Shown here in pieces: positions 41,801-64,000 of a stretch of DNA of 64,000 nucleotides (position 1 is the stretch's first letter; each line of letters opens with the position of its first letter). This DNA comes from Candidatus Sulfotelmatobacter sp. GTDB lineage: Bacteria; Acidobacteriota; Terriglobia; Terriglobales; Acidobacteriaceae. The notes below the pieces were generated by a model that made no database searches, was not told the origin of the DNA, and was given only the letters and a program-made list of their open reading frames with translations. Both the position numbers and the translations under genes were made by a program. The stretch is from positions 1 to 64,000 of the forward strand of contig JAOAPI010000180.1 in NCBI GenBank assembly GCA_025462865.1, given 5' to 3'.

Positions 41801-44800
41801 CCGTGGGCAGCACTCAGCAGTTTGCCGCTTCGGGAACGTACAGCGATAGCAGCACGCAGGACCTCACCGCTGCTGCAATATGGAACTCGTCCAATACAAG
41901 TGTTGCTAGTGTTTCGGCTGGATTAGCTTCCGGTCTGGCGCCCGGTACAACTCAGATAAGCGCAACGTCGCTTTCGATAAAAGGATCGATAACCCTCACA
42001 GTCACGGTGACCCTTGCCTTGCCGCAGTCAATCTCTGTGTCGGCTGCCAACTCTTCGATAGCGATTGGTCAAAATCAGCAGTTCTTTGCCACGGGACTAT
42101 ACGCGGATGGTAGCACCCAGGATTTAACCAGCTCTGTGAGCTGGAGTTCTTCGCAGCCGGCAACTGCCGATATCACTGCTGCCGGTGTAGCCCGCGCTTT
42201 GGGCGGTGGCTCAACCACAATCACCGCAGTGCTCGGCACCATGAATGCCTCGGCAACTTTAAAAGTCAATCCCCTGGCTCTGGTGTCAATCGCATTGGTA
42301 CCGGCCAGCTCCTCGATCGCGCTGGGGACCAACCAACAGTTTGCAGCAACGGGAACCTACGCCGACGGCAGCACGCTTGACTTGACGACCTCGGCGAACT
42401 GGAGTTCTTCAATCACGTCAGTGGCATCGATCAACATCAGCGGAATGGCGACGAGTGTGTCCACGGGACAGACGCTGATCACCGCGGCGGCCGCCGGTGT
42501 GTCCGGTTCGGGTTCCTTGAGCGTAAGTCCCGCCGCTCTGGTGTCAATCTCCGTCACCCCCGTACTTCAAACCATCCCGCGGGGGACGACTCAGCAATTT
42601 GCGGCGAATGGAACTTTCAGCGACGGCAGCATACAGAACATAACCAGCTCAGTGCAGTGGAGCTCATCGGATAGCTCCGTAGTAACTATTAATAATGGTG
42701 TCGGGGGTCTGGCGACGGGGCTGGCGACAGGTACTTCCACCATTTCGGCAACCTCAGGCTCGATCTCAAAGTCGACCACGCTTACGGTGAACACAGCCGC
42801 CTTGGTCTCAATCACTGTGAACCCGCCAATCCCCTTCATCGCTCTGGGTACGACACAACAATTTGCGGCCGCCGGAATCTTTACGGATGGCAGCACCCAG
42901 GACTTGACGGCCTCCGCCAGTTGGAGCTCTAGCAATGCGGGTGTGGCCAGGGTAAATCCCGGTGCGCTCGGAACCTCTGTGTCAATTGGAGCAACTCAGA
43001 TCACTGCCACTTTCGGTGGAATAACTGGACTCACTGTGCTGACTGTAACCCCGGCTTCCATAGTTTCGATCGTAGTCAATCCCTCGAGCACTGTCATTGC
43101 GTCGGGATTAACCCAGTCATTTTCGGCGCTCGGAACGTTCACGGACGGCTCCGCGCAGGACGTGAGCAGTTCGGTGCATTGGAGTTCGTCCGTTGCGAGT
43201 GTCGCCACCATCAGCAATACCCCGGGAATTCAGGGAATAGCCACCGGAACTAATAGCGGAAGCACGCTGGTCGCTGCAACCATGGGCACAGTTTCTGGAA
43301 CGGCTACTTTAACTGTCACTACGGCGCTGCTGGCTGCGATCGAAATCAGTCCGCAAAGTTCTTCCATTCCGCTGGGGACCACACAACAATTCAGTGCCAC
43401 AGGTTTGTATACGGATGGAACCATTGCGGACCTGACACCAGCCGCGGTATGGACTTCCTCGGCAGTGAATGTTGCGACAATCGGTAACGCGCCTGGAATT
43501 CAAGGGCTAGCTCAAAGCGCTGGCGAGGGAACTACAAGGATCTCCGCAAGCTCGGGTTCACTGACCGCTTCGACAACCCTGACTGTGCAGGAGCAAGTGG
43601 TTTCGATCAGCGTAACGCCCCTGAGCGCTTCCATACTTTCGGGAACCACTCAGCAGTTCAGCGCTACTGGAACATTTTCGAACGGGTCCACCGAGGACGT
43701 CACCAACCTCGTGCAGTGGACATCTTCGTCCGCGAACGTGGCTACGATTACGCCCGCGGGCCTGGCCGTTAGCGCCGCCGCCGGGAAAACTGTGATTACG
43801 GCGAGCCTGGGTTCGCTCAGTAGTGCGGGTACTCTGGTCGTTACCCCAATTCGGCATGTCGTCATCATTTTCCAGGAAAATCGTACTCCCGATAATTTAT
43901 TTCAGGATCCTGTGCTGATAGCGAGGGGTGCGGATATCGTCGGCAGCGGAGTTAATTCGAAGGGCCAGGTCATCCCGCTGGCCCCGATTGATCTGGGCAC
44001 CAACGGAAGCAGCCCTGATACTTATGATTTAAGCCATACGCATAATGCGTTCGTACGCATGTGCGATCTGAAGCAGGCGACTGGAAACTGTGCAATGGAT
44101 GGGGCCGACCTTGTTACCGTTGTGTGCCCACCGGGAATCACGAACTGCGCGCCGCCAACTCCTCAATTCAAGTACGTGAATCCCGGCGACGTGCAGCCTT
44201 ACTTTCAGATGGCCGAACAGTATACATTCGCCGATCGCATGTTCCAGACCAACCAGGGTCCCAGCTTTCCAGCTCATCAATTCATTATTTCGGGAACTTC
44301 CGCGCCTACGGCGACCAGCAATTTATTTGCCGCTGAAAACATGGGCATACAAGGGGCTGCGGGTTGTACAGCTCCCCCAACGCAATACGTTGCCATGATT
44401 GACCCTGCCGGCGCTGAGTCCAGCAAGATGTACCCTTGCTTCGAGCATCAGACGCTAACCGACTTGCTCAATGCCGCCGGCGTTAACTGGCGATACTACG
44501 CGCCCTCTGTAGGATCAATTTGGAATGGTCCAAATGCGATTCAGCATATGTGTGGACCCAATGCGACTCCTCCGAATGCCACCTCATGCACGGGATCGGA
44601 TTGGACCAATAGCGTAGTGCTGGCGCAAAACATAAGCTCGGCTCAAGTGCTGACCGATATCGCCAATAACCAACTCGCTGGCGTGAGTTGGGTGATTCCG
44701 CTTGCTCCGGCGTCAGACCATGCTCTGGGCACTGACGGCTCCGGCCCTTCGTGGGTCGCATCTATCGTTAACGCCATTGGCAACAGTCCTTACTGGTCCG

Positions 44801-45153
44801 ATACCGCGATTTTCGTTACGTGGGACGATTGGGGGGGTTGGTACGACCATGTTCCGCCACCTCTGCTCAATTCCTACGAGTACGGTTTCCGCGTTCCCAT
44901 GATCGTTGTCTCGCCGTACGCAAAACCGGCTTATATTTCGCACCTTACCCATGATTTTGGGAGCATTTTGAGATTTGTGGAGACGACTTTCAACTTGCCG
45001 TCGCTTGGTTACGCCGATGCCCAGGCGGACGATCTCTCTGATTGCTTCAATTACATGCAGACCCCGATCCCATACCAAACCATGGTGGCGCCGCTCAAGG
45101 GCGAGCACTTCCTCGGGGACACGCGTCCTCCCATTGGACCCGACGACGAATGA
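38851..45153 (+). CDS. Giant secreted phosphoesterase (phospholipase C/acid phosphatase type) on an Ig-like stalk
   Basis: The ATG at 38851 gives an immediate signal peptide (RNHSSWLVALFCCLSLIARA); GTG 38806 is the alternative. The 2,100-residue chain contains three N-terminal ASH/choice-of-anchor-D-like domains (SISISGDFAQTS, TPTGLGTRSGTLTI) and two BIG2 Ig-like domains. A LamG/concanavalin-like domain (GLIGWWTGDGD, MDEVAIFNQALS) and eleven more BIG2 domains (about 85 residues, TQQFAATGTYADGS type) follow. The C-terminal 430 residues are a PF04185-type phosphoesterase: VVIIFQENRTPDNLF, NQGPSFPAHQFIISG and FVTWDDWGGWYDHV supply the expected metal and catalytic residues. It probably hydrolyses phosphate esters outside the cell. 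The stalk may project or tether the enzyme. Confidence 0.9.
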   Translation: MRNHSSWLVALFCCLSLIARAQTLTPTSLLFGNWVVQTTSTSQTIVLSNSLSTPLTITSISITGDFAKTSNCPITPKTLPANASCKISVTFTPTVLGTRPGTLSVNDNATTSPQIAQLSGSGVTPAALSPSSVAFGTQYLKTTSAAKVVTLQNNQAVPLTITGISISGDFAQTSTCPVSPATLPAKQSCKISVTFSPALVGVRTGTLTTTDSTSNSPQTAQLSGTGTAPVTLSPASLVFTSQVFGKTSAAKTITLKNTQSVPLTITAISISGDFAQTSNCPLSPNQLAAGGSCAISATFTPTGLGTRSGTLTITDNASTTPQTANLSGTGTLSGLVSISLSPASPKIAAGNQQQFVATGTWTGGVTADISQFVVWSSSAPAIAAVNATGLAQGVAQGSASISASYGSTNGMTTVTVGAPVVTSISVTPSSPSVLVGASQQFSAVLNYSDGSMKDATASVTWSSSNAAIATITSTGLVSPLAAGSAYIAAASGSVSGSTTLNVFQPPCVAVPPGLIGWWTGDGDMVDIAANNSGTAQNGVAYGSGEIQQGFSFAGNGTGVLINSPVYSPTTGTLMFWVFPTASGWLTGSYDGVNHTPGFLVDTSGNLVWEFANLSGQSVGQVGFNHWSHVALTYSASNSEVAVNVYLNGSLAASAISRQNPSWYPQLVLGGYLGVQNPGFAGSMDEVAIFNQALSSPQIGQVYNALGAGMCKPTLQSITVAPQNPSLAFGLSQQFGASGTYSDGSVHDLTASTSWSSSNPAIATINRSGQASAIAVGSSSITASLGTKTGSTGLSVVPGLISIQVNPPSPTIASGTTVPLTASGTFSDGSTQDLTKSVRWASTTPGVATITATGLANGIAVGQSQIVASIGFVSGSSLLTVTPALLTGLTISPSNASIAAGKTQSYSAMGLFSDGSIQDLTQAVSWTSSTQSVATINTSGLATGLSAGQATIAASLSSVSGSAPLTVTPAVLTGIAVSPINPSLPVGSTQQFAASGTYSDSSTQDLTAAAIWNSSNTSVASVSAGLASGLAPGTTQISATSLSIKGSITLTVTVTLALPQSISVSAANSSIAIGQNQQFFATGLYADGSTQDLTSSVSWSSSQPATADITAAGVARALGGGSTTITAVLGTMNASATLKVNPLALVSIALVPASSSIALGTNQQFAATGTYADGSTLDLTTSANWSSSITSVASINISGMATSVSTGQTLITAAAAGVSGSGSLSVSPAALVSISVTPVLQTIPRGTTQQFAANGTFSDGSIQNITSSVQWSSSDSSVVTINNGVGGLATGLATGTSTISATSGSISKSTTLTVNTAALVSITVNPPIPFIALGTTQQFAAAGIFTDGSTQDLTASASWSSSNAGVARVNPGALGTSVSIGATQITATFGGITGLTVLTVTPASIVSIVVNPSSTVIASGLTQSFSALGTFTDGSAQDVSSSVHWSSSVASVATISNTPGIQGIATGTNSGSTLVAATMGTVSGTATLTVTTALLAAIEISPQSSSIPLGTTQQFSATGLYTDGTIADLTPAAVWTSSAVNVATIGNAPGIQGLAQSAGEGTTRISASSGSLTASTTLTVQEQVVSISVTPLSASILSGTTQQFSATGTFSNGSTEDVTNLVQWTSSSANVATITPAGLAVSAAAGKTVITASLGSLSSAGTLVVTPIRHVVIIFQENRTPDNLFQDPVLIARGADIVGSGVNSKGQVIPLAPIDLGTNGSSPDTYDLSHTHNAFVRMCDLKQATGNCAMDGADLVTVVCPPGITNCAPPTPQFKYVNPGDVQPYFQMAEQYTFADRMFQTNQGPSFPAHQFIISGTSAPTATSNLFAAENMGIQGAAGCTAPPTQYVAMIDPAGAESSKMYPCFEHQTLTDLLNAAGVNWRYYAPSVGSIWNGPNAIQHMCGPNATPPNATSCTGSDWTNSVVLAQNISSAQVLTDIANNQLAGVSWVIPLAPASDHALGTDGSGPSWVASIVNAIGNSPYWSDTAIFVTWDDWGGWYDHVPPPLLNSYEYGFRVPMIVVSPYAKPAYISHLTHDFGSILRFVETTFNLPSLGYADAQADDLSDCFNYMQTPIPYQTMVAPLKGEHFLGDTRPPIGPDDE

Positions 45154-45788: not shown

Positions 45789-46340
45789 TCATTGAATCGT
45801 CTCGGACTCCCGTAGTGGCACCCGCACTCCCTCGGGAATCAGGTGCTGAAGCACTTTTTCTTGAGCGGCTCGCTTAGCTTTGCGACGTGAGTGCGAGTAA
45901 TAGAGGGTCATGTCCATCTTCGCATAGCTGATCGCTTGAACCAGAGCGGGATTCTCCTGCTCATCCATTAGAAAGGTCGCTAGAGAATGTCGCCCAAGGT
46001 TGTGGAAGCCAAATCGCTTCACAACTTCGCCGTCGCAGTCGTAGGTCACGCCGTCCTCGACCCTGATGACGCCCGCTGTTATTGCAGCGGGGCGAATATA
46101 GTCTTCGACCAGTTGGGATGCACTGCGGGGCTGCTCGCCATTCACCTTTTCGGATGGAAAAACGAAGTCATCGTCCTCCGCATACGTCGTTTTCTTCTGC
46201 CAAGCTGCAAGAGCGTCGAGCAGGAGTTGTGGAGCTTCCACCCGTGATCGGGACAGCTTGGTTTTGGCACCATCCTGCATGTTGAAATGGACGAATGTTT
46301 CCCGAATGGCAATCAAGCCGCGATCCCATAGGATATTCCG
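45789..46340 (-). pseudogene. Truncated tyrosine recombinase (phage-type integrase), C-terminal half
   Basis: About 180 codons encode the C-terminal catalytic half of a tyrosine recombinase. The box-II region HNLGRHSLATFL contains H-x-x-R, and the nucleophilic tyrosine is in the TLYYSH segment. Upstream, the frame reads WDRGLIAIRETFVHF, a normal integrase segment, and then meets a stop within the 34-bp direct repeat that begins at 46342. The core-binding domain and first catalytic Arg are missing, so it is not a functional integrase. The break coinciding with the repeat shows that recombination or insertion removed its 5' part. It sits next to tRNA-Val(CAC). Confidence 0.75.
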
Positions 46341-52679: not shown

Positions 52680-53741
52680 CTATATCTGAGCGGAGAGCAG
52701 AGTTCGGGCAATCTTCTCAACATCTTCTTTTGACCCGCGAAAGGCCCACAGTTGTGAGCGATCTTCAACGTAGCGCAGTCCTGTATCCCCACCAATCGCT
52801 GGAACGTGATATTCCATTTCACTGAACATTCCCCAGCGGCTATTCACACTGCAAGCCTGTGTGCAGTACCCCCGATCTTCAGGCTCTGTCCAGGGTACAT
52901 CGGCATACTCGCCTGACGGATTGACGAAGAAATTGCGAATGATGAGCGCGCGCTTGTTGCCGGTACCATACATGTAGCCGATACGGCCGGTCGTACCGGC
53001 CGCACGTATTCCGATTTTGTGCTCACCGGCAGCCCGCATCTTGAAGCGCACCAGCCGATCACTTATTGCGAGTTCGTCGCGAAGTTTGTCGACGAGACCA
53101 AAGTAAATCCTAGGCTCGGTTTTGGAATAGGTCGGAACATAAAGCTCCCCCTGATGGGGCATTTGCGTAAGACTCCACAATCCCACCAGTGGAGCACGGT
53201 CAGGATCTGGATCAATAATCTTCAAAGACGTCAGAAGAGTATGTCCGGCATATTCAACGTCAGCGATTTGAATATTGCCGTCATAGCGAAGCGGATTCGG
53301 AGCCGAGGCTACGGACTTCGTGATCTCGAGTTCCACGCGCTTCCGCGATCGAAAAGCGTCGATCTTCAAACGATTGATGAGCTTTACTCCGTGAACGGTC
53401 TTCGTCACTTCGTAATTGCCCGGATCAAGGCTGCGCGGTTGCCAATATCCGGCGATATCGATGTCGGGAAACTTCGGGAAAAAGAAGTCGACTTCTGGAG
53501 CAAGCCAAGTCCGGTCTCCACCGGAATTTTGCCAGTCATCACTCGCATAGTACGCGCGAGCGGACTCTACGCTCTCGAGCGCGGAATTCGTCCAGAGAAA
53601 ATTCTCTTCACTACCCGGCGCGTAGACCCCGAGAATTCTGCCGCCATAGGGCAAAATGAGCAGACGGGTCCCGTCATCGGTTTGATAGAGCTCGGTAGTC
53701 TTGCCAACTGCATTCAGTGTTGCGACAAGATCTTGAAGCAT
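52680..53741 (-). CDS. Galactose-mutarotase-fold protein (DUF6786-like)
   Basis: This 353-residue cytoplasmic protein lacks a signal peptide. The N-terminal pattern (TRLLILPYGGRILGVYAPGS; NFLWTN; GGDRTWLAPEVDFFFP) and its all-beta character match aldose-1-epimerase-like folds, and it resembles the family catalogued as DUF6786. The catalytic His/Glu pair of true mutarotases was not identified, so enzymatic activity is unproven; a sugar-epimerase or sugar-binding role is plausible. It follows the SDR gene by 12 bases and is its operon partner. A palindrome upstream of that SDR gene probably controls both. Confidence 0.65.
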   Translation of the reverse strand: MLQDLVATLNAVGKTTELYQTDDGTRLLILPYGGRILGVYAPGSEENFLWTNSALESVESARAYYASDDWQNSGGDRTWLAPEVDFFFPKFPDIDIAGYWQPRSLDPGNYEVTKTVHGVKLINRLKIDAFRSRKRVELEITKSVASAPNPLRYDGNIQIADVEYAGHTLLTSLKIIDPDPDRAPLVGLWSLTQMPHQGELYVPTYSKTEPRIYFGLVDKLRDELAISDRLVRFKMRAAGEHKIGIRAAGTTGRIGYMYGTGNKRALIIRNFFVNPSGEYADVPWTEPEDRGYCTQACSVNSRWGMFSEMEYHVPAIGGDTGLRYVEDRSQLWAFRGSKEDVEKIARTLLSAQI

Positions 53742-53753
53742 TGTTCAATTCCC

Positions 53754-54596
53754 TTAGACGCCCGGAATATAACCTTTGCCAAAAGTATTGCTGGACTCTT
53801 TTCTGAAGTCCGAGACCAGAGACATGAGTGCCGTCGTCCCTCCATCGGCGACGAGGGTTTGACCGACGATGAACGACGCGTCATCCGAACACAAGAAAGC
53901 AGCCAGTTTGGCAATATCGAGCGGTTCACCGCAGCGGGCAACCGGGATGGCGCGGTACCCTGTTTCCGCGGCGATCTCCTTCGTAAAACCAGGGATGCAC
54001 TTGAAGTAGTTTTCCACCGTGACCCAACCCGGTGCGATCGCGTTTACTCGAATCCCCCGATAGGCCAGTTCCACGGCGAGAGATCGCGTATAAGCAATGA
54101 TCGCTCCCTTGGTTGCCGCATATACGGAATGTTCAGGAACGCCCTGCAACCCATGAACGGAGGACATGTTGCAGATAACGCCGCCGCCACGCTGCAGCAT
54201 GCCCTCAACCACTCTTTGAGTGAGGAAGTACGGGCCGCGGAAATTGATGTGGAACAGTTTGTCGAATTGCTCGGGCGTCACCTTGAGGAATGGCCGGTTC
54301 ATGGTCACCCCCGCATTGTTGACCAAACAGTTCACGCCGTCGAGAAATTCGTTGGCTTGATCGGCAAGCAAAGTCACCTGGTCCAGGACGTCGAAGTCCG
54401 CTTGAAACGCAGTGGACCTGCGGCCCATGGCCTTTACTTCCTCTACCGCGGCCTTTACCCCAGAATCACTTTGGACATAGTGAAATACAACATCGGCGCC
54501 CTGACGGGCAAATTCGAGACCAATTTCATGTCCAATTCCGGTATCAGAGCCCGTGACGAGAGCTTTTTTCCCCTGGAGCCTTAATTCATGCGGCAT
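53754..54596 (-). CDS. SDR-family NAD(P)-dependent dehydrogenase
   Basis: The ATG at 54596 places the Rossmann motif TGSDTGIG near the N-terminus; an in-frame TTG at 54614 is the alternative. The 280-residue length is standard. Further SDR marks are NNAGVTMNRPF, SSVHGLQGVPEHSVYAATKG with the catalytic Ser, Tyr and Lys, and INAIAPGWVTVENYF. It would oxidise or reduce a hydroxyl of a sugar or sugar acid. It leads a two-gene unit with the mutarotase-fold protein and lies near an SMP-30 lactonase and a sugar-acid dehydratase, so a sugar dehydrogenase role fits. Exact substrate unknown. Confidence 0.88.
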   Translation of the reverse strand: MPHELRLQGKKALVTGSDTGIGHEIGLEFARQGADVVFHYVQSDSGVKAAVEEVKAMGRRSTAFQADFDVLDQVTLLADQANEFLDGVNCLVNNAGVTMNRPFLKVTPEQFDKLFHINFRGPYFLTQRVVEGMLQRGGGVICNMSSVHGLQGVPEHSVYAATKGAIIAYTRSLAVELAYRGIRVNAIAPGWVTVENYFKCIPGFTKEIAAETGYRAIPVARCGEPLDIAKLAAFLCSDDASFIVGQTLVADGGTTALMSLVSDFRKESSNTFGKGYIPGV

Positions 54597-54739
54597 AGAT
54601 AACCAATCCGACAAAAACGCGAATTTAGTGGCCGTGTTCGTACACGCGTACTTTTAGCCTGAGGCGGAGGACGTTCGGCTGACTTACGATAACACTCAAC
54701 TGCTTCTTGCAGGCTCGCTCACTCGAAGTGCGGCTCGTG

Positions 54740-54790: not shown

Positions 54791-55669
54791 TCATCCGGCA
54801 AAACGTGGCTCGTCCATGCCGGTAATGCCTGCCCTCAGGCAAAATAAATCGCCCGACTTCGGGTAGCGGTCCTTTTCCTCCTTCTTCAGTCCGAGAGAAG
54901 CAGAGGTTATGTAGAGTTCATCAAGCTGTTTGCCGCCAAAGGCACAACTGGTCGGGTTAGGGACCGGTAACCGGTATTCACGATCCACTTTGCCTTCCGG
55001 GTTGTACCGCACCACCTTCCAGCCACCCCAGAATGCGCTCCACACGAATCCTTCGCTATCCACCGTAAGGCCGTCCGGTATGCCGGAGTCGGGAGAGGTC
55101 TCAACAAAAGTCCTGCGGTTGGTAATGGTGCCAGTATCCGGCGTGTAATCGTACGCGTAGATGCTATAGCGGAAAGAATCGGTCAAGTACATGATCTTTC
55201 GATTCGGACTCCAGCCAATTCCGTTTGCCACAGTAATATTGTTATCCATCGCTTGCCACGAGCCATCGGCTCGGACGCAAAACAACTCGCCATCCCGCCC
55301 TTTGGGATTGGCATCATTCACGGTGCCCACCCAAAACCGACCGCGACTGTCAGTAGCCGCATCGTTAAAGCGGCAACCGGTTCGGTCGAAAAGTGGATCG
55401 CAGAGAGGCTCAAGAGTCTTGCGCTGGGTGTCCCACGTGGCAATTCCTTTTCCGGTTGCCGCAACAAAACCGCCTGCCTTCCGAATCCCCAGCGCCATTA
55501 TCGGAATGCCCGTTTCGAACACGTTGGTGCCCCTCGTTTGCGGGTAGAACCGAAGAATCTGATATTGTTCAATGAAGTTCACCCAATAGAGGCACTCTTC
55601 CTGCGAGTGCCAGAGCGGGCCCTCTCCAATCACATTGCGTACTTCAAGGACGTGCTCGACTTCGGCCAC
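54791..55669 (-). CDS. SMP-30/gluconolactonase family lactonase
   Basis: This 292-residue six-bladed beta-propeller protein has no signal peptide. Family marks are LEVRNVIGEGPLWHSQEECL (metal-ligand Glu), CRFNDAATDSRGRFWVGTVN (Asn and Asp ligands), ANGIGWSPNRKIMYLTDSFR and SGIPDGLTVDSEGFVWSAFW. Members open sugar lactones such as gluconolactone or galactonolactone with a divalent metal. It is divergent from the sugar-acid dehydratase gene with 150 bases between starts, and the pair would form consecutive steps: lactone to aldonate, then aldonate to 2-keto-3-deoxy acid. The divergent promoters overlap palindromic sites. Confidence 0.92.
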   Translation of the reverse strand: MAEVEHVLEVRNVIGEGPLWHSQEECLYWVNFIEQYQILRFYPQTRGTNVFETGIPIMALGIRKAGGFVAATGKGIATWDTQRKTLEPLCDPLFDRTGCRFNDAATDSRGRFWVGTVNDANPKGRDGELFCVRADGSWQAMDNNITVANGIGWSPNRKIMYLTDSFRYSIYAYDYTPDTGTITNRRTFVETSPDSGIPDGLTVDSEGFVWSAFWGGWKVVRYNPEGKVDREYRLPVPNPTSCAFGGKQLDELYITSASLGLKKEEKDRYPKSGDLFCLRAGITGMDEPRFAG

Positions 55670-55819: not shown

Positions 55820-56965
55820 ATGAAAATCACCGCCGTTGAAACCATCTATCTCCCCCGCGGAATCACGGTTCACGCAGGAGCGATCACCTACCTTTGGGTT
55901 CGGATCCACACTAGCGACGGTCTCGTTGGCCTGGGAGAGAGCTATCCAAATGCCGAAGCGGAAGCCGCCATCGTTCATTCCCGGCTAGCCGCCGTGCTGC
56001 TGGGACGGGATCCGAGCGCAATCGACCGGCTCTGGGCCGACATGTTTCTCGCGGTCTCTTATAGCGGCTGGGGCGGCGCAGAGATGCGCGCGATCAGCGC
56101 AGTCGATATTGCCCTGTGGGATTTGTTCGGCAAGGTTACCGGCCAACCGATCTATAAACTTCTTGGCGGAGCGTCGCGCCAGTCCATACGTATTTACAAC
56201 ACCTGCTACGACCGCGTTGACTTCAATCACGAACCTGCCCGGCTCGCCGGCGAGCTTCTAGCCAGTAACGTGCGTGCTATGAAAATCTGGCCGTTCGATC
56301 CGATCGCCAAAGAAACCGGTGGCAATTACATTACGGCGGAGCAACTCCGGCGGGCAATTGAACCTTTGCGGCTGATCCGGGAAAAGTTTGGCGATTCCAT
56401 TGACGTCGCCATCGAGTTTCATGGCTTCTGGAATTTACCTTGCGCCATCCAAATCGCAAAGGCGTTAGAGCCTTACAAACCAATGTGGCTGGAAGAGATG
56501 CTTCCGCAGGACAATCTTGCCGCTTACGCAGAACTCGCAGGTTCCACTGATCTGCCGCTCTGCGTCAGCGAACGACTGATGACGCGTTGGGGATTTCGCG
56601 AACTTTTCGAAAATCGCGCGGCCGCGATCATTATGCCGGATATTTCATGGTGCGGCGGACTCACCGAAGGCAAGAAAATCGCAACCATGGCCGAGACTTA
56701 TTATCTTCCCATCGCGCCGCACAATTGCGGCGGTCCCATTTTGCACTTCGCAACGGCGCATCTCTCGGCCAATCTGACCAACCTCTACATCATGGAAAGC
56801 GTTCGAAGGCACTACAACGAAGAGTACGAGAGATTAGTTACGCAGAAACTGGTCCCAGGAGCCGGTGGTGAGCTGCCATTGCCTACAGGGCCTGGTTTGG
56901 GCGTTGAGTTGAGCGCCGACGTGCTCACCCGCAAAGATGCGATCGTAAGACGGTCATCTGTGTAG
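55820..56965 (+). CDS. Enolase-superfamily sugar-acid dehydratase (galactonate dehydratase-like)
   Basis: This 381-residue mandelate racemase/muconate lactonizing-type protein has an N-terminal capping domain (GAITYLWVRIHTSDGLVGLG), a barrel and metal-site residues E199 (IEFHG), E225/E226 (PMWLEEM) and E251 (CVSERL). H201 in IEFHG and H301 in APHNCGG are where galactonate dehydratase has its catalytic histidines. These enzymes remove water from an aldonate to give a 2-keto-3-deoxy sugar acid. Substrate stereochemistry cannot be read from sequence. It is divergent from the SMP-30 lactonase and converges on the lipoyl-domain gene (27 bases between stops). Confidence 0.92.
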   Translation: MKITAVETIYLPRGITVHAGAITYLWVRIHTSDGLVGLGESYPNAEAEAAIVHSRLAAVLLGRDPSAIDRLWADMFLAVSYSGWGGAEMRAISAVDIALWDLFGKVTGQPIYKLLGGASRQSIRIYNTCYDRVDFNHEPARLAGELLASNVRAMKIWPFDPIAKETGGNYITAEQLRRAIEPLRLIREKFGDSIDVAIEFHGFWNLPCAIQIAKALEPYKPMWLEEMLPQDNLAAYAELAGSTDLPLCVSERLMTRWGFRELFENRAAAIIMPDISWCGGLTEGKKIATMAETYYLPIAPHNCGGPILHFATAHLSANLTNLYIMESVRRHYNEEYERLVTQKLVPGAGGELPLPTGPGLGVELSADVLTRKDAIVRRSSV

Positions 56966-56992: not shown

Positions 56993-57247
56993 TTACGAAG
57001 CGGTGTCCGGCTCATCAGTCAGCATGGCGAGCAACGTGCCCACCGGGACTTTTGCACCAAGTTCCACCTGGATCGTTCCCAGATAGCCTTTTCCCATCGA
57101 CTCGACTTCCATTTCGACCTTATCGGTTTCGACCGTAAACAGAGTTTCGCCTTTATCAACCCACTCCCCGGGTTTTTTGAGCCAACTGGTCACCGAACCC
57201 TCCTCCATGGTGAGACCGAGCTGCGGCATCACAATTTTATATGCCAT
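56993..57247 (-). CDS. Free-standing lipoyl-carrier domain protein
   Basis: This 84-residue protein consists only of a lipoyl/biotinyl-type flattened beta-barrel (VMPQLGLTMEEGSVTSWLKK). The lipoylation motif is ETDKVEMEV with K43 as attachment site; ETDK is typical of lipoyl, not biotin, carriers. No peripheral-subunit-binding or acyltransferase domain follows before the stop, so it is not a truncated E2 by length alone, though loss of a longer gene cannot be excluded. It starts 2 bases after the E1 beta stop, as the last gene of the operon. It probably accepts the acyl or reducing equivalents from the adjacent E1. Confidence 0.88.
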   Translation of the reverse strand: MAYKIVMPQLGLTMEEGSVTSWLKKPGEWVDKGETLFTVETDKVEMEVESMGKGYLGTIQVELGAKVPVGTLLAMLTDEPDTAS

Positions 57248-57249
57248 CT

Positions 57250-58254
57250 CTAACTTACTCTCCTCACTTGTTTCATCACCTCGTGTACTTCACGGACGAT
57301 GCGATCGACTGACGGAATCATTTGATTTTCAAGAACGGGGCTAAACGGGTTGGGGACAGGCAATGAGCAGATTCGCCTTGGGGTTGCCTGGAGCTCGTCG
57401 AAGCAGTCCTCGACAGCAATTGCCAGAAGCTCTCCCGCGAAACTGCAGTATGACGGCGACTCATCAATCACCACGAGCCTTCCGGTTTTCCTAATGGAGT
57501 TGGTGATCTTCGTCCGATCGAGAGGAACGATGGTTCGAGGGTCTATCACTTCCGCTGAAATTCCCTCTTGGGCCAGCACCGTCGCGGCCTTTGCGGCCAG
57601 ATCAACCATCCGTGACATCGCCACAATCGTCAGATCTTTGCCTTCGCGGACGATGCGCGCATCTCCGAACGGAATCAGGTAATCCTCCTCGGGAACGACG
57701 CTCTTGGTGTTGTAAAGGGACTTGTGCTCAATCAGCGCCACAGGGCCGGGATCCCGGAGCGCAGTCTTGAAGAGTCCTTTCAGGTCATAAGGTGTGGCGG
57801 GGAGGGCCACCTTCAATCCCGGAGTGTTCGCAAACCAGTTATAGAAAGTGTGGGAATGGTGGGCGCCGGCATTGCGCACCGCGCCCATGGCTCCTCGAAT
57901 CACTACCGGCGCTTTTATCTTACCGTTGGACATGTAGGAAATATTCGCGGCTTGTTGCACAATTTGCGTAATCGCTTCGAGTGCGAAATCGAGGAATACT
58001 TCGTCGATGACGGTACGGGTGCCTGCCATGGCCGCGCCAATCGCCGCACCTGTAGCTCCGAGTTCGCAGATGCCGGTATCGCGCAAGCGCTCATCCCCGA
58101 ATTCTTTCCACAATCCGCGGGTTTGACGAAAGTTTCCGCCCCGGGGACCAATCCCTTGCCCGATGTAAACAATGCTGTCGTCTCTGCGCATTTCTTCGCG
58201 CAACGCTTCGACTCCTGCATCGGCGTATGTGATCACCCGGCCTTGCTCTGACAT
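57250..58254 (-). CDS. TPP-dependent 2-oxoacid dehydrogenase E1, beta subunit
   Basis: This 334-residue protein has the transketolase pyrimidine-binding and C-terminal domains of E1 beta (VYIGQGIGPRGGNFRQTRGL; DTGICELGATGAAIGAAMAG; DEVFLDFALEAITQIVQQAA; VIDPRTIVPLDRTKI). With the alpha subunit encoded 13 bases upstream it would form an alpha2beta2 enzyme that decarboxylates a 2-oxo acid and passes the acyl group to a lipoyl carrier. The only such carrier gene visible is the small one 2 bases downstream. It resembles pyruvate, acetoin and branched-chain E1; the sugar-gene context suggests a keto-sugar-acid or diketone substrate. Confidence 0.92.
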   Translation of the reverse strand: MSEQGRVITYADAGVEALREEMRRDDSIVYIGQGIGPRGGNFRQTRGLWKEFGDERLRDTGICELGATGAAIGAAMAGTRTVIDEVFLDFALEAITQIVQQAANISYMSNGKIKAPVVIRGAMGAVRNAGAHHSHTFYNWFANTPGLKVALPATPYDLKGLFKTALRDPGPVALIEHKSLYNTKSVVPEEDYLIPFGDARIVREGKDLTIVAMSRMVDLAAKAATVLAQEGISAEVIDPRTIVPLDRTKITNSIRKTGRLVVIDESPSYCSFAGELLAIAVEDCFDELQATPRRICSLPVPNPFSPVLENQMIPSVDRIVREVHEVMKQVRRVS

Positions 58255-58267
58255 ACTTTCTCCTCAG

Positions 58268-59245
58268 CTAGAACACGTGCTCAGTTACGGATGCAGCGGA
58301 CGGTTCAGGGCTTTTCTCGGCAAATTCGACGGCATCATCGATTAGCTGCTCTACCTGTTGATCCGCCGTTTGCAATTTATTTTCATCCATACCGGAGTCG
58401 AGCAGCCGTTGCCGGGCAAGTTTCACCGGGTCCTGTTTCTTCCACTGCTGAACTTCTTCACGGGTGCGATAATCCGTACCCGGATCACCTTCGTGGTGGC
58501 CAACATAGCGATAAGTTTTGCATTCGATCAGCGTGGGGCCGCCATCCCCGCGGGCCCGTTGGATGGCGGCTTGTGCAACTTCGTGGACCGCAACGACGTC
58601 CTGCCCATCGACTTCGACGCCCAGCATTCCATACGCAGCCGCCCGGCTAGCAACGCTCGTATTCTTAGTGGCACGGACGAATGCCATCTCTGTTGCGTAT
58701 AAATTGTTCTCGCACACATACACCACCGGCAAGTCCCATACCGAGCCGAGATTCACCGCCTCGTGAAACGAGCCGCTGTTGACTGCACCATCACCAAAGA
58801 AGCAAACGACAACCTGCGAATGCTTCCTTACCTTCGCGCTCAGGGCGGCGCCCGTCGCTAGCGGAATGGGGGCGCCCACAATTCCGTTGGTACCCATAAA
58901 TCCATATTCAGGCGCATACATGTGCATACTGCCGCCGCGCCCTCCCGAACTTCCCGTTGCCTTGCCCCAAAGTTCGGCAAGCACGACGCCCGCTGGCACT
59001 CCCTTGGCTAGGGCGTGACCGTGGCCGCGATGGGTGCTAAAAACTAAGTCCGCGGTCTGGAGATTCGAACATACCCCTACCGCAACCGCCTCTTCACCCA
59101 CATATAAGTGGACGAACCCGGGAAGCCTTCCGTTTCGATATAGTTCTTGAACCTTAAGCTCGAACAATCGCAATTCGAGTACCTTTTTGTAGTAAGCAAG
59201 AAGCAATTCTTGCGAGATTTGCTCCGCCAGAACTCGTTCCGACAT
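58268..59245 (-). CDS. TPP-dependent 2-oxoacid dehydrogenase E1, alpha subunit
   Basis: The ATG at 59245 has GGAGG eight bases upstream and is preferred over an in-frame start at 59302, which would overlap the previous gene. The 325-residue product contains the thiamin-diphosphate motif GDGAVNSGSFHEAVNLG ending in CENN, and the family's phosphorylation-loop-like region (YRYVGHHEGDPGTDYRTREE). It pairs with E1 beta. It follows the Gfo/Idh/MocA gene by 2 bases, so it is firmly part of the sugar-oxidation operon. Confidence 0.92.
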   Translation of the reverse strand: MSERVLAEQISQELLLAYYKKVLELRLFELKVQELYRNGRLPGFVHLYVGEEAVAVGVCSNLQTADLVFSTHRGHGHALAKGVPAGVVLAELWGKATGSSGGRGGSMHMYAPEYGFMGTNGIVGAPIPLATGAALSAKVRKHSQVVVCFFGDGAVNSGSFHEAVNLGSVWDLPVVYVCENNLYATEMAFVRATKNTSVASRAAAYGMLGVEVDGQDVVAVHEVAQAAIQRARGDGGPTLIECKTYRYVGHHEGDPGTDYRTREEVQQWKKQDPVKLARQRLLDSGMDENKLQTADQQVEQLIDDAVEFAEKSPEPSAASVTEHVF

Positions 59246-59247
59246 GA

Positions 59248-60363
59248 TTAGACCCTCCCGGACTCGTGCGACAGCAACAGCGGCAACTTCTGGGGTGCGC
59301 ATTCGCGCTGCGAACGGTAGACCGCGGTAAATAGTTCCACCACACGACGCCCCGCTTCCGCGTCGACCTGCGGTTCTCGATCCTCCAATACTGCGTCTAG
59401 AAAGTCAGCGAGTTGCACTTGGTGGTAGTGGGTCATCACATCCCAGTCGCGCGAGCGGTCTTCGCGATTCCAGGCCTCGAGATTCCGCTCTTCTCCCGGC
59501 ACCGTCCAGATGTCGTTAAATGGCGGATCCATTTTTTCCGTGACACCGGAGATAAATGGAGAGCCGCTGTCTGTCTCCGCGCCCACCGAGGCGCCTGAAG
59601 AACCATGAATGTGAATCTTTCCCCACAATCCGGGGCGCTGCGAATTGCTGAGGACAATTGAACCCATTCCACCGTTGATGAACCGGACGGAAGCCACAAC
59701 AGTGTCGTCCACTTCTATCCCGGGATGGTTATAGTTGTCCCAATAGCCCTGCAACTCGACAGCGGGACCCATGAACCAGCTCATCAGGTCAAGATAGTGC
59801 GGCGCCTGACTCACCACCACACCACCTCCCTCGCCTTCCCAGGTTCCACGCCAGGGATCGGAGCGATAGTAGGCGGGTTCACGCCAGCCAAGCATGGTTA
59901 CAATTGCCAACACCGGTTTGCCTAGCTTGCCGGCATCAATCGCTTTCTTCATTCGCTGCACTGGTTCGTACCAGCGTCGCTGGCTGATCACGCCTAATTT
60001 GATTCCGGCAGCACGCGCGGCCGCGATCGCCCGATCGCAAGACTCCAGATCGATAGCGAGTGGTTTCTCCGAAATGACGTGTACTCCGGCCGCCGCTGCT
60101 ATTTCAACGGCGGCAGGATGCTGAGTGTGTTGCGTGCAGACCGATAACACATCTACATGCTCCCGATCCAACATCTCAGCCAGATCGGTGTACGCCTTGA
60201 CCTGAAGATTCTTTGCGAACGCTTGCGCGCGCTCGGGAGAAATATCGCAAACCGATACCAGTTCCGAGTTCGGAAGTGAGCGATAAGCGAGCGCATGCGT
60301 GCCGGCGACCTTTCCGCAGCCCACGATCGCAGTCTTGAGGCGAGTTTGACGCGTCTTTCGCAT
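59248..60363 (-). CDS. Gfo/Idh/MocA-family oxidoreductase
   Basis: The ATG at 60363 starts directly before the Rossmann motif (LKTAIVGCGKVAGTHALAYR); the frame is open to 60495 but that stretch overlaps the previous gene. The 371-residue protein has the conserved ISEKPLAIDL segment and a C-terminal substrate domain (VVVSQAPHYLDLMSWFMGPA). Members use NAD(P) to oxidise or reduce sugars and inositols. In this operon it could oxidise the released sugar or a keto intermediate. It lies between a VOC gene and the E1 alpha gene. Confidence 0.9.
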   Translation of the reverse strand: MRKTRQTRLKTAIVGCGKVAGTHALAYRSLPNSELVSVCDISPERAQAFAKNLQVKAYTDLAEMLDREHVDVLSVCTQHTQHPAAVEIAAAAGVHVISEKPLAIDLESCDRAIAAARAAGIKLGVISQRRWYEPVQRMKKAIDAGKLGKPVLAIVTMLGWREPAYYRSDPWRGTWEGEGGGVVVSQAPHYLDLMSWFMGPAVELQGYWDNYNHPGIEVDDTVVASVRFINGGMGSIVLSNSQRPGLWGKIHIHGSSGASVGAETDSGSPFISGVTEKMDPPFNDIWTVPGEERNLEAWNREDRSRDWDVMTHYHQVQLADFLDAVLEDREPQVDAEAGRRVVELFTAVYRSQRECAPQKLPLLLSHESGRV

Positions 60364-60404: not shown

Positions 60405-60911
60405 TCAGGGAACCGAGGTGCCATCCGACTCCCCCGGCCGGTGTCGCAATTCCACCAGGAATCCCAAAAGGTCTTTTGTATCCAGTAGCGCCCAACGTGT
60501 GCCGGGGCGTATTCCGCTTCCAGACTGGAGCACAGTTACGCCAGACTTCGCCAATTCCTCAATCACGGGATCGATATCGCTTACTTCAAACAGCAGATGA
60601 TGGATTCCCCCACCGTTCTGATTGAGGAAATCTTTGTATCCACTACTACCTTCAACGGGCTGAATAATTTCGACTTCCACCTCTCCCAACTGAACAAATG
60701 CCTGCTTAATTCGAACGCTCTCTTCCACGCCGCGATAGTAGTACTTCGATTCAGGTCGATCTGGCCACTCCACGAAGCGAAAAGGTCCAATGCCAAATAA
60801 AGAAGTTAGAAGCTGCGTGGTACGGTCGCGATTGCCGACAACGATTCCAATCTGTACGAGCCGTTTGAGCTGTATTCCGCCCACAAGCGACGATGGCAAA
60901 TTCGGCATCAT
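60405..60911 (-). CDS. VOC-superfamily protein (glyoxalase/epimerase-like)
   Basis: This 168-residue protein has two beta-alpha-beta-beta-beta modules of the vicinal-oxygen-chelate fold: VQIGIVVGNRDRTTQLLTSL at the start and GGIHHLLFEVSDIDPVIEEL in the second half, with metal-ligand candidates in VEVEIIQP and GFLVELRH. It is most like methylmalonyl-CoA epimerase-type members, but the operon lacks CoA chemistry. Isomerisation or epimerisation of a keto-sugar-acid intermediate is possible. Flanked by the Gfo/Idh/MocA and SDR genes in one operon. Confidence 0.82.
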   Translation of the reverse strand: MMPNLPSSLVGGIQLKRLVQIGIVVGNRDRTTQLLTSLFGIGPFRFVEWPDRPESKYYYRGVEESVRIKQAFVQLGEVEVEIIQPVEGSSGYKDFLNQNGGGIHHLLFEVSDIDPVIEELAKSGVTVLQSGSGIRPGTRWALLDTKDLLGFLVELRHRPGESDGTSVP

Positions 60912-60938: not shown

Positions 60939-61745
60939 TTATCGAGCCAGATAGCCTCCATCCACTGGAAGAATTACACCCGTGACCATCGACGAAGCAT
61001 TCGACGCCAAGAACAAGGCCGGACCGACGATCTCTTGAGGTTCCCCCACGCGGCCGAGTGGAATATTAGACACCCAGGTTTGCATGAGTTTTTTGGGGTC
61101 GAACTGCGGCTCGGCCATTACCTCTTTCAGTCCGGGCGTAAGAAACTGGCAGGGAGCAATCGCGTTGACCCGAATACCTCGATCCGCCCATTCCAGCGCG
61201 AGTTGCTTGGTCAAGGCGTTCACTCCTCCCTTGCTGGCGCAATAAGCGTTGGCGCCGCGGCCGACACCGACCACTCCCGCAATCGATGAGAAATTAACGA
61301 TAACTCCCCCGCCCTTTTTCAACATAACCCGCGCTGCCGCCTGGCAGCACAGAAACGTGCCGCGCAGGTTGATGTCCAGAACTCGGTCCCAAGTTTCCAG
61401 CGGAGTCGATTCCGCGGGATCATGTTGCGGGATGCCGGCACAGTTCACCAGAATATCGAGGCCGCCAAGTTCGCTAACTGTCGCATCAACCATGGCAAAT
61501 ATGTCGTCGGCAACGGCAACATTCGCTTTGAGGGCGATCGCGCGCCTTCCTATTTTGCGCACTCGCTCAGCAGTGCGCTGAGGGTTTTCTATATTGAGGT
61601 CGCACGCGGCTATATCGCAGCCAAATTCAGCGAAACCAAGCGCGATCGCTTCTCCGAAGCCCACCCCAGCCCCGGTGATAAGGGCAACCCGTCCGCTAAG
61701 ATCAAACAACTTTCGAAAAGCTGTAGATTCCATGTCCATGTTCAA
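60939..61745 (-). CDS. SDR-family NAD(P)-dependent dehydrogenase
   Basis: This 268-residue protein has the cofactor motif TGAGVGFGEAIALG, NCAGIPQHDPAE, the catalytic Ser in NFSSIAGVVGVG, the Tyr/Lys pair in ANAYCASKGGV and VNAIAPCQFLTPG. The first residues (MNMDMES) leave the exact Met uncertain. It resembles gluconate-5-dehydrogenase/sugar-acid dehydrogenase-type SDRs. In the operon it lies between the GH36-like gene and the VOC gene. It is a candidate for oxidising a hydroxyl of the deoxy keto acid formed by the dehydratase. Confidence 0.88.
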   Translation of the reverse strand: MNMDMESTAFRKLFDLSGRVALITGAGVGFGEAIALGFAEFGCDIAACDLNIENPQRTAERVRKIGRRAIALKANVAVADDIFAMVDATVSELGGLDILVNCAGIPQHDPAESTPLETWDRVLDINLRGTFLCCQAAARVMLKKGGGVIVNFSSIAGVVGVGRGANAYCASKGGVNALTKQLALEWADRGIRVNAIAPCQFLTPGLKEVMAEPQFDPKKLMQTWVSNIPLGRVGEPQEIVGPALFLASNASSMVTGVILPVDGGYLAR

Positions 61746-61772: not shown

Positions 61773-64000
61773 TCAGCGACTCTTTGCCTTCGCGGACAAG
61801 CTCTCAAACAACAACATCTCGGATGTTCCGTTTGTTTCCAGCCTTACTGGAATACCTTCTGTCATTAGCCGAAGTCCGGACAACTCAACGGTCTCAGCAC
61901 GATTTTTAAAAGTAACCTTATAAGTGCCGGACAAATCGAGGCCGCGGGGCACAAAATGGTAGACAGGGTCTTCGAAGCTGGAGGTACGGAATAACGTAGC
62001 GACACCGCGGCTCTTATCAGGTGCCGCATATTCCAGGACAAGCCAGGGCGACTGACTTTGATATGGGATCAGCGGCGTGTGATGGTAGACCAAACTATCC
62101 CGCAAAATCGGTCGCAACTCATTCTTGTAAAGATCCACGCCGGCGCGAATCTTGTTGCGCAAAATGGGATTCAATTCATCGGGTGATGGCGCAATCCCCC
62201 GAAAAATTGGCAGCGACATCTCAACCTGCCGCATCTGGTAATCAATGTCGCCATCGCCCGCCAGATCGGGCACTTCGGTGCCGAAAGTGCGTAGCAGAAT
62301 TTCCGGCGGAAGCAACCATGTCATGCCACTCAGGATTTTTACTCCTCGCGGCCCGCGCATCCAGTCGGACAGTTCGGTGTTGTCAAAGCGGTGCAAAATA
62401 CCCCAATCCAGCCGACCACCGCCGCCAGCGCAGTTTTGAAAAATAACGTGAGGAAATTGCAGGCGTAGGCGATCAAACATCGCATACAGATTCTCCACGT
62501 GACGCCACGCAGAATTTTCGACAAATCCCTCCCGTACCTGATTTCCGTCTTCTTCAGTCGACATGTTGTAATCGATGCGAAAAACATCAAGATCGTATTT
62601 CTTAATGATTCGCGCGATTTCCGATTCCATCCATTTCGCGACTGCCGGGTTCCCCACATCCAGGTGGCGGCCGTCGGCAATGGGCCCACCGTCGCGGGTT
62701 AGAATCCAGTCAGGGTGTTCTTTCCGCAGCTTCGAAGCCGCGCCTGCGCCTTCGATCTCAACCCACAACCCGAAGTGCAGCCCTTTTTTGCGAGCGTACT
62801 CGCGGATAGGCTGAATATCGTTCGGCAACCACGCTCCCGCGTACCAGTCGCCCACATTTTGGTACCAACGGTTTGGCTCCGGCCCATACCAGCCCGCATC
62901 AATCAGAAATGTCTCGGCGCCGATATCGGCGGCCATATCGATCTCCCGCTCGATGCCTGCCTCTGTCTCGTGATCCACGATGTATCCGCGATGGTTTGCC
63001 TCCACGTCGAAGACATGCTCGGAAGGCGGAGCGGGAAGTACATCGCGGCGCACGTGATTCAAAAGCGCCTGCGTGACATGATCCAGATCCGACTTCATGC
63101 AGAGGATGTGAGTTTCCGGCGTCTTGACGGTCTCGCCGGCAGCAACGACTCGCAGAGCGGGGTCAACCGAACTGGGGCCCATGTCGAAAAACAGGCGAGC
63201 CTCATTCACCGGCCTATCGATAGAGTTCGAACGGTCGACCGGTGATTTTTCAACTTTGCTCGTTACTCGGATTCTCCAGTTCCCGCTCCACGCAAGAGAT
63301 GCGGCGAACCATTCTCCCGTGGCGTTATTACGTGCGAAGAATGTTGGGTGTCCCCATCCGGATTTTCCCCGTTCCCCAGCGATAATCTTAGTTTCGTTGA
63401 CCACCGGGTCGAAGCGCCACGCTCCTTCGTATCCCCATTTACTGTATTGCGCGGACCCGACGTCGTATACATTTTCGGATTCGGCAGGCAGCTTCTCGGC
63501 AAAATTGGGCGTGTGCCATAGCTGCCCTGACCACGGCGACACATTCGAGATAGCCGTCGCGTGCTCTGCGGTATTCTTAATTTCAAGCCAGCGAACCATC
63601 ACAGGGCCGCCGGTCAAGAGAGTTTGAACTTTTACCCGAACCGGGCGGACGGTACTTTCCAGTTCCACGGATACGAGCAATCCCCCGGAGATCTGAACAT
63701 CGGATTTGCCGGCTCCCACCCACTTCCAGGTCCCAGAAAGCTCCTGTCCTTCTATTTCAAGTTTGAACGCGTCGACCGGCAAACCGTCCATCTGCTGACG
63801 CTCAGCTTCGATTTGAACGTCTGCGACGATCTGACCAGTCGACTCCCAATAACGGCTCACCCACCGGCCATGGCGTAGCTCTTCATCGCAAATCGTGAGT
63901 CCGGAACTGAAGCGCACTCCCGGAATCGGACCTGTCCGAATGACCGCCGAACGGGGATTCAATGCCGGAGCTGCCGCCGCAAAGAGAACCGAATGAAGAA
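61773..64000 (-). CDS. GH36-like alpha-galactosidase (N-terminus beyond window)
   Basis: The visible 740 residues run to the window end with the frame still open upstream of a TTG at 63962 (SVLFAAAAPALNPRSA), which resembles the end of a signal peptide. The gene is therefore probably cut by the window. An N-terminal beta-supersandwich (WLEIKNTAEHATAISNVSPW) precedes a TIM barrel with WYGPEPNRWYQNVGDW, the nucleophile region DVFRIDYNMS, NCAGGGGRLDWG and the acid/base in NTELSDWMRGP. GH36/melibiase enzymes release alpha-linked galactose. Arg replaces the usual Lys before the IDYN, so substrate preference may differ. It heads the operon running to the lipoyl gene. Confidence 0.87.
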   Translation of the reverse strand, partial: LHSVLFAAAAPALNPRSAVIRTGPIPGVRFSSGLTICDEELRHGRWVSRYWESTGQIVADVQIEAERQQMDGLPVDAFKLEIEGQELSGTWKWVGAGKSDVQISGGLLVSVELESTVRPVRVKVQTLLTGGPVMVRWLEIKNTAEHATAISNVSPWSGQLWHTPNFAEKLPAESENVYDVGSAQYSKWGYEGAWRFDPVVNETKIIAGERGKSGWGHPTFFARNNATGEWFAASLAWSGNWRIRVTSKVEKSPVDRSNSIDRPVNEARLFFDMGPSSVDPALRVVAAGETVKTPETHILCMKSDLDHVTQALLNHVRRDVLPAPPSEHVFDVEANHRGYIVDHETEAGIEREIDMAADIGAETFLIDAGWYGPEPNRWYQNVGDWYAGAWLPNDIQPIREYARKKGLHFGLWVEIEGAGAASKLRKEHPDWILTRDGGPIADGRHLDVGNPAVAKWMESEIARIIKKYDLDVFRIDYNMSTEEDGNQVREGFVENSAWRHVENLYAMFDRLRLQFPHVIFQNCAGGGGRLDWGILHRFDNTELSDWMRGPRGVKILSGMTWLLPPEILLRTFGTEVPDLAGDGDIDYQMRQVEMSLPIFRGIAPSPDELNPILRNKIRAGVDLYKNELRPILRDSLVYHHTPLIPYQSQSPWLVLEYAAPDKSRGVATLFRTSSFEDPVYHFVPRGLDLSGTYKVTFKNRAETVELSGLRLMTEGIPVRLETNGTSEMLLFESLSAKAKSR

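Follow-up and report, generated by a model that had tools for sequence, protein, structure and literature searches.

An E1–lipoyl carrier trio without a linked E2 in a sugar operon of Candidatus Sulfotelmatobacter, apparently an offshoot of the 2-oxoacid dehydrogenase complexes

The window analysed here is a stretch of 64,000 nucleotides of Candidatus Sulfotelmatobacter DNA, part of a contig (C43) that reaches 92.8 kb in a genome of 6.08 Mb. Within a sugar operon near its end are the two halves of a thiamine diphosphate (ThDP)-dependent E1 and a free-standing lipoyl carrier, a trio that seems to be an offshoot of the 2-oxoacid dehydrogenase complexes without the acyltransferase E2. Fetched loci, genomes and contigs of the window genome are denoted by L, G and C, respectively. 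The trio consists of the following genes.

58268..59245, minus strand: E1 alpha, the ThDP pyrophosphate-binding half with a GDG...NN motif (PF00676, 287 bits)
57250..58254, minus strand: E1 beta, the ThDP pyrimidine-binding half (PF02779 and PF02780)
56993..57247, minus strand: free-standing lipoyl carrier of 84 amino acids (aa) (PF00364, 69.6 bits; lipoyl motif ETDKVEME)

Separating E1 alpha from E1 beta are 13 bases, and E1 beta from the carrier 2 bases; reading frames and Pfam matches confirm this arrangement of E1 alpha, E1 beta and an 84-residue carrier in a sugar operon, as given in a preliminary description of this DNA. By Pfam, the carrier comprises PF00364 alone, with no peripheral subunit-binding domain (PSBD) and no acyltransferase domain, and its best NCBIfam match is a partial one, to the lipoyl part of AcoC (NF011457, 81.8 bits over residues 2–79, cut-off 307). 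In the textbook picture, a 2-oxoacid dehydrogenase is assembled around an E2 core. The window genome has three copies of the E2 catalytic domain PF00198, on C129, C138 and C186, and there is no match to it anywhere on C43. The model for lipoamide dehydrogenase (E3) has 21 matches in the genome, two of them above cut-off, on C129 and C186, and no match on C43. These searches rule out a hidden E2 or E3 on the contig, including a pair just outside the operon, and agree with the earlier observation that neither is linked to the trio. The absence of E2 and E3 from the trio’s contig is real, though the cell encodes both. Proteins of the E1 alpha type (PF00676) are found at five places in the genome, the window copy having the highest score.

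The trio, which the preliminary description had proposed to seek beside sugar genes elsewhere, was found in further genomes by a scan of a genome collection from which 80 loci were kept, the basis of our survey of relatives. The window cluster recurs at L078, L081 and L084 (four genomes in all; the L081 contig stops within the dehydratase gene, and its E1 alpha is incomplete). The four carriers are of 80–84 aa, occupy the same position and keep the motif ETDK(V/I)EME, judging from which the carrier is very probably lipoylated in the cell. For the carrier, the ratio of nonsynonymous to synonymous divergence (dN/dS) could be computed for three of the six genome pairs and amounts to 0.03, 0.05 and 0.07; dN is 0.07–0.23, and dS, which is high or saturated in every pair, ranges from 1.1 upwards to saturation. 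The carrier is conserved and under purifying selection, which rules out a pseudogene or a chance open reading frame, the latter being disfavoured also because four genomes share the cluster. That it is a decaying, functionless remnant of an E2 is highly improbable: although relatives have full E2 proteins that exceed it in length, its own length, place and lysine motif are kept in four genomes and dN/dS is 0.03–0.07 where computable.

Two other identities were considered for the carrier. Biotin carriers have a biotinyl motif of the Met-Lys-Met type, and the carrier’s ETDKVEME is not of this type. GcvH and LbpA resemble it in being small free lipoate-binding carriers (PMC6067878), but the carrier has no GCV_H match and, at E 0.001, matches PF00364 only; among ten scanned neighbours no glycine-cleavage or hdr-type families were found by Pfam.

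Surrounding the trio are genes of sugar and sugar-acid metabolism, with short-chain dehydrogenases (SDRs) on both sides.

59248..60348, minus strand: Gfo/Idh/MocA oxidoreductase, sugar 3-dehydrogenase-like (PF01408; start codon assumed)
60405..60911, minus strand: VOC-superfamily protein, methylmalonyl-CoA-epimerase-like (PF13669; TIGR03081, 55.3 bits, below the cut-off of 114.95)
60939..61745, minus strand: SDR2, a gluconate 5-dehydrogenase/KduD-like short-chain dehydrogenase (PF13561, NCBIfam)
61773..63962, minus strand, the frame running past the window edge: GH36-type glycoside hydrolase (PF02065 and PF16874 on the longer frame L019:1773-4247)
55820..56965, plus strand: sugar-acid dehydratase of the mandelate racemase/enolase superfamily (MR/MLE; PF13378, PF02746)
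54791..55669, minus strand: SMP-30/gluconolactonase-family lactonase (PF08450, 266.8 bits)
53754..54614, minus strand: SDR1, a short-chain dehydrogenase (PF13561)
52680..53741, minus strand: DUF6786 protein (PF20583, 46.5 bits)
C43:64367-65386, upstream of the operon, just past the window edge: RhaT-type transporter
C43:65559-66401, upstream of the operon, just past the window edge: GntR/FCD regulator

The dehydratase, lactonase, SDRs and Gfo/Idh/MocA enzyme named earlier as neighbours are all present by Pfam. Forming a close-packed run on the minus strand are the GH36 hydrolase, SDR2, VOC, Gfo/Idh/MocA, E1 alpha, E1 beta and carrier genes; the dehydratase gene is convergent with the carrier gene and lies outside the trio’s transcript because it is on the opposite strand. 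The best NCBIfam match of the dehydratase is galactonate dehydratase (240.9 bits versus a cut-off of 311), PDB matches of the Gfo/Idh/MocA protein include glucuronide-3-dehydrogenase and DgpA, and the DUF6786 protein recurs in several related clusters. A promoter and terminator scan returned fewer sites than in shuffled sequences. Because it combines the GH36 hydrolase, transporter, Gfo/Idh/MocA enzyme, SDRs, lactonase and dehydratase, the gene set suggests that a sugar or sugar acid is oxidised, possibly one released from an alpha-galactoside.

Further along the contig, past the sugar operon, an enolase over its NCBIfam cut-off adjoins an APH-family kinase-like gene (L248:953-3242, C43:75952-78241). 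On the other side, several kb from the sugar genes, is a tyrosine-recombinase-like fragment (45789-46316; Phage_integrase, 25.0 bits, cut-off 27.1), which may mark a mobile region, and at 38806-45153 is a 2115-aa protein of repetitive appearance, with Ig-like repeats called by eye.

Sorted by domain content, 38 of the 80 loci have an E2 catalytic domain, nine a lipoyl protein without such a domain and 33 no lipoyl match. Many of these 33 are on short or cut contigs, where absence means little; the nine reduce to six clear cases once L087 and L156 (cut by contig ends) and L127 (a separate case, described below) are set aside. At L080, the order SDR2, VOC, E1 alpha, E1 beta is followed by a 180-aa protein with lipoyl domain and PSBD and without an acyltransferase domain; at L079, E1 alpha and E1 beta are followed by a 460-aa protein that by Pfam comprises a lipoyl domain, an E3-binding domain (PSBD) and a short-chain dehydrogenase. 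The most complete operon is L209, with E3, SDR2, VOC, E1 alpha, E1 beta, a full E2 and a LipA-like gene, and an ADH-like frame between them called by eye. Relatives of SDR2, with 66–86% identity, are found near E1 in L078, L080, L081, L084 and L209. Both L210 and L211 have a full E2 and a relative of SDR1, and L211 also encodes, by Pfam, an FAH hydrolase, two 2-hydroxyacid dehydrogenases, Ldh_2, an MBL-fold protein and RhaT. More distant (56–58%) are L082 and L083, the latter cut by a contig end, whose E2 proteins have the catalytic domain. Two further E1 alpha/beta pairs of the family (L205:3818-5836 and L206:9278-11293) have no lipoyl protein detected nearby in the fetched stretches.

In a maximum-likelihood tree of E1 alpha and E1 beta (36 taxa, 650 columns, LG+G4, ultrafast bootstrap, rooted on the C129 copy), the window, L078, L081, L084, L080 and L079 form one clade with support of 100, to which L209 is sister (98); together with L205, L206, L082, L083, L210 and L211 they are grouped at 100. 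A repeat with 48 taxa gives the same groupings, with supports of 100, 99 and 100. The carrier-only clade is nested in a family most of whose remaining members encode a full E2. Because these relatives keep a whole E2, and one of them also E3 and a lipoyl-synthase-like gene, the carrier would be a trimmed E2. This origin was missed in the preliminary description, of which the E1 with a free lipoyl carrier, no linked E2 or E3 and an operon of sugar-acid type stands. On the simplest reading, the acyltransferase domain was lost first and the subunit-binding domain later, the surviving intermediates being lipoyl plus PSBD (L080) and lipoyl plus PSBD plus SDR (L079), and then lipoyl alone. All five family E2 proteins checked have kept the DHRxxDG motif, which we take to be catalytic. 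Some small probability remains with an ancestral lone carrier, given that a trio on a Thermus plasmid, described below, branches outside the rest of the E1 family; the PSBD remnants count against it.

The dehydrogenase that takes the place of the acyltransferase at L079 is 68% identical to the window’s SDR1 and retains the NNAG, Ser and YxxxK residues, which are presumably catalytic. It raises the question of whether SDR1, which is FabG-like, could work on the acyl group while it is held on the lipoyl arm, the carrier then playing the part of an acyl carrier protein (ACP). A comparable pairing is seen in a member of the Kiritimatiellia (L127:5104-10937), where E1 alpha and E1 beta stand with a lipoyl–PSBD protein without acyltransferase and a FabG-type SDR in a cluster of polyketide- or fatty-acid-like appearance, with two ketosynthases and an ACP called by eye; this cluster may possibly load a starter unit from lipoyl to ACP. 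For the window, chemistry on the carrier is nevertheless quite unlikely: relatives of SDR1 (61–63%) stand as separate genes beside the full-E2 clusters L210, L211 and L227, so that it is not tied to E2 loss, and the L079 fusion is known from one contig of a metagenome-assembled genome (MAG), in which a one-base error at a stop codon could mimic a fusion. We discounted the VOC protein as a candidate for the missing acyl acceptor, since it is found beside the full-E2 cluster L209 as well.

The window E1 was aligned with human pyruvate dehydrogenase (PDH; both subunits) and, for E1 beta, also with the 2-oxo acid dehydrogenase 1um9, which we take to be of the Thermus branched-chain type. It keeps the GDG...NN motif and, in E1 beta, a Glu and a His that are presumably catalytic. 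Its differences from human PDH that are conserved in the family, as judged without the Thermus trio, are (L/M/F)DFxLE(A/T) and HHSH or QHSH around the His in E1 beta, GF(M/L)G(T/S)NG, and YATEM or YATET after the ENN motif; a change from Tyr-Arg to His-Arg relative to human PDH is present in the other aligned bacterial E1, too. Because they fall at family-conserved positions, these differences argue for a substrate other than pyruvate. The score of E1 alpha against the pyruvate dehydrogenase E1 model TIGR03182, 383.8 bits, is just below the cut-off of 393.85.

The explanation that we favour, and consider on balance slightly probable as a whole, is that the trio is an E2-less offshoot whose free carrier is relieved of its acyl group with no dedicated E2 and is served by a housekeeping E3. 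E1 would decarboxylate or cleave a polyhydroxylated 2-oxo or ketol intermediate supplied by the operon’s oxidoreductases and dehydratase, and would reductively acylate the free carrier, which would diffuse like the H protein of glycine cleavage. The acyl group would then leave the carrier without a dedicated E2, and housekeeping E3 would reoxidise the carrier. For this departure we lean slightly and tentatively towards a fully E2-independent release. On chemical grounds, a sugar-acyl thioester with a free C4 or C5 hydroxyl could close to a lactone; a 4- or 5-hydroxyacyl thioester may thus self-close, or a hydrolase may act, and the lactonase would open the lactone. The SMP-30 lactonase beside the window trio fits such a release, and an acyl-lipoyl thioesterase, ABHD11, has been described (PMC12643935).

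Consistent with E2 loss, the E2 proteins of the carrier-only genomes G502 and G505 share 62–86% identity with one or other of the window genome’s E2 proteins (C186, C129 or C138), and neither in these two genomes nor in the window genome was an E2 found beyond these three housekeeping types. G506 also holds the E2 of a second, full-E2 cluster of the E1 family (L082). Three of the four carrier-only genomes, all of them drafts, thus seem to have lost the cognate E2.

Several observations weigh against the favoured explanation. On C43 is a FAH-family protein near the 2,4-didehydro-3-deoxy-L-rhamnonate hydrolase model (413.7 bits, cut-off 500), its gene about 14.6 kb past the transporter gene and with an SDR nearby; a separate enzyme may therefore be in charge of splitting a diketo acid, which counts against the earlier proposal that E1 cleaves a C–C bond of such an acid. 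Were the hydrolase part of the same pathway, diketo cleavage would be hydrolytic and E1 would act elsewhere, for example on a ketol or a cleavage product. It would also yield pyruvate, and so, with the E1 alpha score near the TIGR03182 cut-off, favours a plainer account in which E1 is a dedicated dehydrogenase for pyruvate, or for a lactate-derived 2-oxo acid, burning pyruvate from the sugar pathway through housekeeping E2 and E3; this we regard as unlikely, since the family-conserved E1 positions differ from human PDH and the genome already has housekeeping E1 genes. Lactonases, moreover, are not constant among the relatives: L078 has only a distant SMP-30 protein (33%), L081 ends too early, and none was detected in L084 or L080, the latter having an MBL-fold, ascorbate-6-phosphate-lactonase-like gene. 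The E2-bearing relatives presumably make acyl-CoA, so the ancestral reaction would have used E2. The division between housekeeping and family E2 by identity is weak, the C138 E2 being 42% identical to the family E2 of L227 and the family E2 proteins 36–64% identical to one another, and G503 and G504 carry further E2 genes 40–44% like the family type. Finally, the genomes are drafts or MAGs, in which a missing E2 could be an assembly gap.

The main rival, for which the genome offers three E2 and two E3 genes, is delivery in trans, in which the free carrier would hand its acyl group to a housekeeping E2 core of the C129, C138 or C186 type and be reoxidised by housekeeping E3, giving a normal acyl-CoA. 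This is a possibility nearly as likely as E2-independent release, though we place it somewhat lower. The 42% identity of the C138 E2 to a family E2 is in its favour; what distinguishes C138 is that it carries E1 genes of its own, with a different position in the tree. A parallel is the actinobacterial hybrid PDH–ODH (OdhA with AceF) of Corynebacterium, where the lipoyl groups of a single E2 serve two types of E1 (PMC7568260); in that system they are borne by a full E2 core, in contrast to the lone lipoyl domain of the window. With nothing in the carrier that could join an E2 core or hold E1 or E3, delivery would have to be by diffusion, and an E1-linked carrier without an E2 catalytic domain is found in several lineages, both of which speak against the trans route.

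Arrangements of E1 and lipoyl domain without E2 are found outside the family clade as well. On a Thermus thermophilus plasmid (L215:7047-9234, NZ_AP024930.1), E1 alpha, E1 beta and an 82-aa lipoyl protein annotated as ‘biotin/lipoyl-containing protein’ are followed by a TRAP transporter, with no E2 or E3 among the 18 annotated features shown. At L106 and L238, the gene order is E1 alpha, E1 beta, lipoyl protein, Gfo/Idh/MocA. In the class of G503, the L080 E1 alpha query has matches of 55–56% identity in seven genomes with E1 frames of at least 853 aa, and in all four of those fetched (L228–L231), E1 alpha, E1 beta and a C-terminal lipoyl domain are joined in one chain. None of the four has an acyltransferase match, and the one chain examined by Pfam for a PSBD (L228) has none. 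A chain of 803 aa (L228:8430-10841) adjoins SDR and xylose-isomerase-like TIM-barrel proteins. The other long or fused E1 frames fetched (L232–L237) have a separate E2 with catalytic domain. A Phaeobacter plasmid (L214:7010-14012, NZ_CP010615.1) shows a split E2, made up of a two-lipoyl protein and a separate acyltransferase protein, together with a dihydrolipoyl dehydrogenase.

The E2-less cases occupy different places in the tree, the deep position of L106 and L238 being weakly supported (14 in the 48-taxon tree). A broader and more doubtful proposal is that they represent a class of lipoyl systems that handle polyhydroxy substrates without E2, apparently arrived at more than once, in which the sugar-acyl thioester would leave by lactone closure with no CoA or acyltransferase and NADH would be formed via housekeeping E3. 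Its forms would be the free carrier, lipoyl–PSBD, the lipoyl–PSBD–SDR fusion and the single-chain E1 alpha–E1 beta–lipoyl protein.

Compared with known systems, the trio shares the ThDP motifs of E1 alpha and E1 beta and an E2-type lipoyl lysine motif with the pyruvate and branched-chain 2-oxoacid dehydrogenase complexes, but differs in several E1 pocket residues and in the absence of an E2 catalytic core, PSBD and linked E3. Its lipoyl domain scores best with the AcoC model of acetoin dehydrogenase (AcoABC), and the THRGHGH motif of its E1 alpha is, we assume, AcoA-like. AcoC carries a second domain of the alpha/beta-hydrolase type, which is absent from the carrier, and the AcoC cut-off is not reached (81.8 versus 307). 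The QncN/QncL and SclQ glycolicacyl systems of natural-product biosynthesis also combine E1-like halves with a lipoyl domain and include an ACP (PMC6335953); they keep the acyltransferase domain that is absent here, and no gene for an ACP was noticed in the operon.

Among the sampled genomes the cluster has the patchy distribution of an accessory trait. Matches to E1 at E 1e-98 or better occur in seven of 397 genomes of the window’s order, three of which (G000, G647 and G651) have the carrier-only form; from identical places and scores we judge G647 and G651 to be G502 and G506, respectively. None of the seven is another genome of the window’s genus, of which at least 20 genomes in the sample lack a match, ruling out a gene common in the genus. 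With the L080 E1 alpha query at E 1e-98, matches are found in 34 of 399 genomes of G503’s class and five of 40 genomes of G504’s order, a threshold that admits E1 from outside the family, such as that of G509 (L207), which falls elsewhere in the tree. Among the matches listed against 150 genomes of the order, none to the carrier exceeds 55% identity besides its own, and against 396 genomes of the phylum E1 alpha has no match above 49% identity; these two samples contained none of the carriers found in the later scans.

In the open-licence literature searched, we found precedents only, and no report in which sugar catabolism involves an E1 whose lipoyl carrier lacks E2, and none of the trimming of E2 to a lone lipoyl domain with SDR substitution. 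The parts are of known kinds; the combination and the E2 trimming appear to be new. One family spans the range from a complete operon with E1, E2, E3 and a lipoyl-synthase-like gene to an E1 with a lone lipoyl domain, with living intermediates, one of which (L079) has a dehydrogenase in the acyltransferase’s place. If the system does work without E2, oxidative decarboxylation would be coupled to NADH by E1, a free carrier and E3, with no CoA. Lone lipoyl proteins encoded next to E1, such as that of the Thermus plasmid, would thereby acquire a function, and sugar-acid biochemistry would gain a compact module.

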